From assembly GCF_002860405.1 (NCBI RefSeq), contig NZ_NMWV01000023.1, positions 62,001 to 126,000 of the forward strand: 64,000 nucleotides of DNA, in the 5' to 3' direction. This DNA comes from Bifidobacterium imperatoris. GTDB lineage: Bacteria; Actinomycetota; Actinomycetes; Actinomycetales; Bifidobacteriaceae. Made by a program: the position numbers and the translations under genes. The notes beneath the pieces were generated by a model that had not been told where the DNA came from, did not search any database, and was given only the letters and a program-made list of their open reading frames with translations. Positions 19,721 through 20,107 of this stretch are shown here, in pieces (the stretch's first letter is position 1; each line of letters opens with the position of its first letter).

Positions 19721-20107
19721 ATGACAGCAACAATGAATATGCCAAAAGCGAAGGTAAACGCACAGGATATTGTGGCCGCTAACGTAAACCTGATGATTAC
19801 GGCGCGACACCTTCAGAAGAAGGATCTAGCCAACGCATTAGGTTTAGCCCCTCAAACGATTGCGCGTAAGCTACGTAGCGAAATTACCTGGACTATTAAC
19901 GAGACTCAGGCGGCAGCAGATTTTCTCAATACAGATGTGGCAACGTTGCTTAACCCTAATCTGACCATGCATGAGCTGTTAGGGTATAAAAATACCGCCA
20001 CCTCGGATGAGTCCAAGAATGGCGGTATTTCTGCGAGTAATGAGTGGGGCCGCAGGGGCTTGAACCCTGGACCGGGCGATTATGAGTCGCATGCTCTAAC
20101 CGACTGA
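19721..20107 (+). CDS. Phage repressor whose 3' end contains the attachment core
   Basis: The protein has an Xre-like helix-turn-helix at about 29-52 (HLQKKDLANALGLAPQTIAR) and should bind the adjacent operators to keep the lytic genes off. Start is ATG 19721 (MTATMNMPKAK) or 19733. There is no stop before the attachment core: codons 107-119 are the core, and in this integrated form the gene ends in the antisense of tRNA-Met (GDYESHALTD, 128 aa). Joining the core to the phage sequence at 1541 keeps the frame and gives 141 residues ending RGRAFFRLFTLAA with a stop at 1606-1608. The LAA end resembles an ssrA degradation tag. Thus integration may stabilise the repressor. Confidence 0.82.
   Translation: MTATMNMPKAKVNAQDIVAANVNLMITARHLQKKDLANALGLAPQTIARKLRSEITWTINETQAAADFLNTDVATLLNPNLTMHELLGYKNTATSDESKNGGISASNEWGRRGLNPGPGDYESHALTD
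19988..20030 (-). terminator. Phage-supplied terminator for tRNA-Met, inside the repressor gene
   Basis: AAATACCGCCA (19990-20000) pairs with TGGCGGTATTT (20020-20030), an 11-bp perfect stem. On the minus strand it begins 15 bases past the tRNA 3' end and is followed by TTTTTA. It lies within repressor codons on the other strand, so one sequence serves both purposes. Confidence 0.65.
20039..20078. other. attR, right attachment core of the prophage
   Basis: This is the second copy of the 40-base core (39/40 with 1501-1540). Here it completes an intact tRNA-Met gene, because the phage carries the tRNA 3' end. It is also coding for repressor residues 107-119. Confidence 0.9.

Follow-up and report, generated by a model that had tools for sequence, protein, structure and literature searches.

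In mycobacteriophage BPs, attP lies within the repressor open reading frame (ORF), the repressor and integrase genes are read in the same direction next to a divergent Cro-like gene, and the viral form of the repressor carries an ssrA-like tail that is lost on integration, an arrangement known as integration-dependent immunity (IDI; PMC4557955). The accessible text of that paper attributes IDI to the mycobacteriophage clusters G, I, N and P. Of the precedents invoked in a first-pass annotation of the DNA presented here, BPs is borne out by this source, while the accessible text mentions Giles only for its identified repressor (PMC4557955). GRU3 (cluster CW) and Twister6 have likewise been described as IDI phages in the part of a further paper available to us (PMC5559632).

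For the genus Bifidobacterium, Mavrich et al. (2018) proposed IDI for the B. breve prophages Bb423phi2 and 689b-1 from an ssrA-like viral tail recognized in silico, according to the text available (PMC6109161). The first-pass annotation knew of no such report for bifidobacteria and was mistaken on this point; a first description in bifidobacteria is ruled out by the same paper (PMC6109161). The 64,000-nucleotide stretch of Bifidobacterium imperatoris DNA analysed here, in the following called the window, contains a prophage that is a likely new IDI member, located at a tRNA-Met different from theirs, in a genus for which IDI was already proposed.

Organization of the prophage and its repressor gene

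The prophage has a length of 18.5 kb and is bounded by two 40-bp copies of the att core (Table 1). Both copies are in the same phase, as had been claimed, but their identity is not complete, with a G at position 1525 versus an A at position 20063. From their translations, the host genes at the start of the window are presumably rpmE and prfA, and the host flank is closest to a B. reuteri genome (89% over 3150 bases). The tRNA-Met site is also used by prophages in B. saguini and B. reuteri. A search of GenBank phages with the prophage returned seven records, matching in short tape-measure pieces only.

Table 1. Features of the prophage and its attachment sites, in window coordinates
Feature	Position	Strand	Remarks
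attL copy of the 40-bp att core	1501..1540		one mismatch to attR, at 1525
Palindrome	1513..1568		core copy 1513-1536, inverted copy 1545-1568; 8-nt loop between 24-bp arms with zero mismatches
Repressor frame in attP, phage-side part	1541..1608	+	ends TTA GCA GCC TGA (LAA, stop 1606-1608); joined in silico
Terminator-like site	1565..1584	+	5-pair stem 1565-1578 at the palindrome end, then T6 1579-1584; scan: 1 found, 0.2 expected in shuffles
Inverted repeat GACCAC-AAGGGAG-GTGGTC	1627..1645	+	surrounds the integrase ribosome-binding site
Tyrosine integrase	1649..2488 (open frame from 1625)	+	Pfam domains in the 287-aa frame: core-binding (starting at residue 25) and catalytic (134-273); no arm-binding domain
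Divergent Cro-like HTH gene, 81 aa	19395..19640	-	role by position only
Likely immunity repressor, lysogen form, 128 aa	19721..20107	+	gene ends within tRNA antisense; matches phrog_4583 (transcriptional repressor, 8e-11); role from position beside integrase
attR copy of the att core	20039..20078		A at 20063, against G at 1525 in attL
tRNA-Met (CAT)	20044..20118	-	intact in the lysogen

Several features by which IDI systems are recognized were found in the window. The repressor ORF contains the attP core in its 3' part. In the phage arrangement, repressor and integrase are adjacent and read in the same direction, with the Cro-like gene divergent, and the tyrosine integrase leaves no room for an arm-binding domain. 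The frame starting with the ATG at 19721 shows no stop ahead of the att core and ends in the lysogen with the TGA at 20105-20107, giving the tail HALTD. When joined across the core, the viral frame stays open to its stop and encodes 141 residues with the tail AFFRLFTLAA. Re-reading of the frames thus confirmed both the lysogen and the viral form as first annotated, the latter on the in silico join: the attP of the window phage is a junction of the two prophage ends, and uninterrupted attPs come from relatives. By its sequence, the viral tail (RLFTLAA) is ssrA-like, while the prophage tail (HALTD) is not. The repressor message of the lysogen would cross part of the host tRNA-Met gene in antisense (20044-20107).

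The most likely start of the integrase is at 1649. The inverted repeat around its ribosome-binding site, which is also present in B. saguini, B. reuteri, B. phasiani and B. callitrichidarum, might hide this site or bind a regulator. The integrase ends in MVAALAV, which might act as a degradation signal. No promoter matching a simple consensus was found.

A palindrome within attP

The first-pass annotation lacked one further feature of the joined attP. The core is followed by its own inverted copy, and this palindrome and a run of six T (T6) both lie inside the extended repressor ORF. RNA folding of positions 1501-1590 yields -71.8 kcal/mol, compared to a mean of -39.8 for shuffled sequences (z -9.0), and in the viral message the terminator-like element precedes the stop codon of the repressor.

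A core followed by an inverted copy inside the repressor ORF was observed in 13 of 13 attPs examined, with arms of 21-34 bp. Their 322 pairs comprise 315 Watson-Crick pairs, no G-U pair and 7 mismatches. Genome G036 adds a 14th attP with a palindrome; here and at locus L094, about 11 nt of the left arm extend beyond the 18-19-bp shared core, and attP contains only about 13-14 bp of this arm. Palindrome scores of 11 joined attPs range from 16 to 29, versus at most 12.5 in shuffles (20 shuffles per row), which rules out chance. Three other Bifidobacterium tRNA repeats have no such palindrome and score 6-7, ruling out a common property of tRNA att repeats. The core palindrome is also absent in JustASigh, GRU3, Barebow and Twister6, whose best inverted repeats score 9-15; these are at the level of shuffles except in GRU3, where a 15-bp inverted repeat is located near attP, outside the core (score 15; shuffles up to 12). 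Used as a pattern, the palindrome of the window type matched no contig in IMG/VR. A literature search that covered few subscription journals yielded no description of an attP palindrome for these phages.

The near-perfect symmetry without G-U pairs favours a reason for the palindrome at the level of DNA. Together with the lack of space for an arm domain in the integrase, this leads us to prefer the reading that the inverted core copy would serve as an extra binding site for the armless integrase. On this reading, the hairpin formed by the viral RNA is best regarded as a by-product that may have an additional effect at sites followed by T6, the window among them.

Alternatively, hairpin and T6 might end the viral message before its stop codon, upon which tmRNA would add its tag and the encoded LAA would act as a read-through back-up. 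The tmRNA tag is AKSNRTEFALAA, ending in ALAA, in 10 of 10 Bifidobacterium genomes searched, so the host component of such a nonstop switch is present, and a strong hairpin plus T6 inside the viral ORF exists in the window, B. saguini and B. reuteri. A precedent is known in arfA, the messages of which are described, in the source text available, as lacking a stop codon and being controlled by tmRNA. However, T6 follows the palindrome in only these 3 of 13 attPs; the terminator-like element inside the ORF is not kept across relatives, contrary to the expectation for an arfA-like gene, and an intrinsic terminator in attP is thereby rejected as a general mechanism. The absence of G-U among the 322 pairs, moreover, gives no sign of selection on RNA pairing. 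We consider such a switch unlikely. Similarly doubtful is a combined, two-layer self-destruct, in which the palindromic attP would offer the armless integrase a second, inverted unit as DNA and, as RNA, would end or cut the message before the stop, so that tmRNA adds ALAA, while escaping messages encode LAA and integration removes both layers. An extra integrase site remains the preferred reading of the palindrome.

Assignment of the repressor

In sequence, the counterparts of the window repressor in Guacamole and cluster P-like phages are genes located at the Cro/excise position, not the annotated immunity repressors of these phages, and phrog_4583 is matched by both HTH proteins of the window. 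Because of these matches, the repressor role is assigned from position. The gene at 19721 could accordingly be a Cro- or excisionase-like regulator instead of the immunity repressor, with the change of its tail tuning another step; its best phage matches, annotated as excise or as transcriptional repressor in Cro position, are in line with this. Yet its position and direction beside the integrase are those of the annotated immunity repressors of JustASigh and Twister6, and we rate the regulator alternative as quite improbable. In the following, the gene is regarded as the likely immunity repressor.

Related prophages in Bifidobacterium

To see how the arrangement is distributed, 112 Bifidobacterium genomes were swept, of which 46 gave repressor matches. 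Among the 68 matches listed, 47 were read (7 + 40); the remaining 21 consist largely of frames around 300 aa long or of Cro-like genes. The first-pass annotation had suggested looking for bifidobacterial prophages with repressor frames crossing attR, and these exist: in 33 of the 47 read (5/7 + 28/40) the frame ends inside an antisense tRNA, which argues that the arrangement is more than chance. In the 28 of 40, the antisense tRNAs are tRNA-Met (10), tRNA-Asn (8), tRNA-Glu (5), tRNA-Lys (4) and tRNA-Leu (1). A frame at a tRNA-Gln site runs through the tRNA and does not end inside it.

For 26 loci, attL was searched 14-60 kb upstream, as far as the contigs allowed. Seven have an attL with the palindrome, three a longer repeat without palindrome (L077, L091 and L098, whose joined tails do not end in AA), and the other 16 nothing or a chance match of 11-15 bp. 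This search found no attL for 3 of the 10 tRNA-Met loci. Besides the window, the IDI layout together with attL is present in 11 of the 112 genomes. HTH frames ending in antisense tRNA-Asn (L071, L073, L077, L081, L089, L095, L104, L105), tRNA-Glu (L082, L084, L086, L088, L096), tRNA-Lys (L092, L098, L101, L102) and tRNA-Leu (L091) were also noted; those searched showed no attL with palindrome, and these frames may belong to other element families or be remnants.

Uninterrupted attPs were found in IMG/VR. Contig IMGVR_UViG_3300029947_000044 (16,961 bp) is circular by an 81-bp end overlap and contains a single repressor ORF that runs through a palindrome with 26-bp arms to the tail SKLILAA, with the integrase next to it, spanning the contig ends. 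IMGVR_UViG_3300013936_000166, which has no end overlap, likewise has an uninterrupted attP, with the repressor tail SFILAA. The third pattern match (L188) is an attL beside host sequence. These contigs also bear on the question of whether the window prophage is cryptic and its attP form never made. Its small genome of 18.5 kb would suit a cryptic element, but published temperate phages of 17.1-17.7 kb share the layout, according to the accessible text (PMC5559632), and a related phage exists as a circular contig; we give a cryptic prophage little chance.

Some relatives show variations at the attachment site. A tRNA-Met gene is located between attP and integrase in G036 (L201, G036:C1:696500-698300) and in B. 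callitrichidarum (L013, 9896-9970), and the arm of L094 (G060:C7) begins with the same sequence as this arrangement. At the attR of G036, a tRNA was looked for and none was found, so the phage may carry a spare tRNA. This idea resembles the published tRNA-dependent lysogeny, as far as described in the text available (PMC10865867). In B. callitrichidarum (L037, L013), a related prophage is apparently located inside a protein-coding gene and not in a tRNA; its two ends share no exact run of at least 9 bp, and its attL side, read by eye, gives ALFKLAA.

Viral tails of the repressor

Joined viral tails could be read for 12 prophages with attL found, the window and 11 of the 112 genomes: RLFTLAA (window and B. 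saguini), RWLILAA, SFILSA, VFNLAA, SLILAA, TFILTA, AFILAA, KYDLVD, DLTQAA (two) and FTLVD. With the two IMG/VR contigs, 14 viral forms are available, of which 12 end in A and 10 in AA, compared to 8.5% and 0.7% of shuffled tails; the rows are related and therefore do not represent independent events. In the two other frames of the 13 attPs, which served as control, only 1 of 26 tails ends in A and none in AA. Across relatives, LAA is written with several codon sets.

Two observations run counter to the simple scheme. Two of the 14 viral tails end in LVD. Such tails are expected to be accepted poorly by ClpX. Furthermore, in G014:C27 (L109), G063:C3 (L110) and G078:C11 (L108), the repressor gene next to the host flank of the metA-site tRNA encodes an LAA tail, and the core there is in sense orientation. 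The LAA of this repressor precedes a sense-oriented 3' half of tRNA-Met, and a 10-nt piece of the antisense core is located inside the ORF. Provided that these loci represent genuine lysogens, integration would not always remove LAA. The three loci are on broken contigs, and in the same genomes integrases are found beside complete tRNA-Met genes on other contigs; possibly, L108-L110 represent a subtype using the other arm of the palindrome.

That the extended frame is incidental, with a repressor gene merely abutting attP and a functionless LAA tail, appears very unlikely: the LVD tails and the apparent retention of LAA at the host flank would fit this, but the tail statistics, the codon variation and the uninterrupted viral alleles in free phage contigs oppose it.

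Proposed mechanism

In the infecting phage, repressor and integrase would be read in the same direction, starting in the interval that separates the two HTH genes. The viral repressor with its LAA tail would be degraded by ClpXP or an equivalent protease. Integration would exchange this tail for the tRNA antisense, and the short form would repress, with immunity as the consequence. At the same time, the integrase would be left at the far end of the prophage, 18 kb away, and lose its link to the sequences upstream of the repressor; a single step could then both set immunity and lower integrase expression. We consider it probable that the 141-aa LAA repressor of the circle is degraded like a tmRNA-tagged protein, and that the 128-aa lysogen form is stable and confers immunity, as predicted from sequence. 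The first-pass annotation had assumed that the logic of IDI operates here. Layout, tails, uninterrupted attP, tmRNA tag and armless integrase support this, whereas the LVD tails and the three loci keeping LAA speak against the scheme in its simple form.

Comparison with known systems

New in the present analysis are the uninterrupted attP in a circular phage contig, the layout with attL in the swept genomes, and the palindromic attP, which is absent from the four compared phages of other genera. The palindrome opens two testable questions, on the recognition of attP by armless integrases and on a possible role of tmRNA in the lysogeny decision of phages. The findings may also aid integration vectors for a genus short of genetic tools.

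According to the available text, Bb423phi2 and 689b-1 resemble the window prophage in their size of about 18 kb, a tRNA-Met site, an integrase at attL and a repressor at attR, but they occupy the tRNA-Met next to metA and have another core (PMC6109161). In the main text on these prophages, neither "palindrom" nor "hairpin" appears (PMC6109161). Their att sequences match the site type of the prophages at L069, L072 and L085, and in 6 of 10 genomes (G005, G019, G027, G029, G086, G090) no more than about 500 bases separate metA from a repressor locus of the metA site type.

In domain content, the integrase of the window is similar to the simple tyrosine integrases of the Brujita type, described in the accessible texts as consisting of core-binding and catalytic domains only and as coupled to IDI (PMC8138268, PMC7194413). 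BPs drops 33 residues of its repressor on integration, whereas the window prophage swaps one tail for another, so that 141 residues become 128; the available text on BPs makes no mention of a palindrome in attP (PMC4557955). Among the phages compared, GRU3 (Gordonia, cluster CW) has a 17-kb genome and the IDI layout, as described in the accessible text (PMC5559632). Its integrase is 43% identical to that of the window, and its viral repressor tail is SLVTAA. It differs in using a tRNA-Lys site and in an attP without core palindrome. By eye, the att core and the end of the repressor tail of GRU3 (L183) form a tandem direct repeat just before the integrase. The gene order HTH(-), repressor(+), integrase(+) is shared with JustASigh, Barebow and Twister6, and with an extra small ORF also with GRU3, and the integrases of these four phages are 41-43% identical to that of the window.
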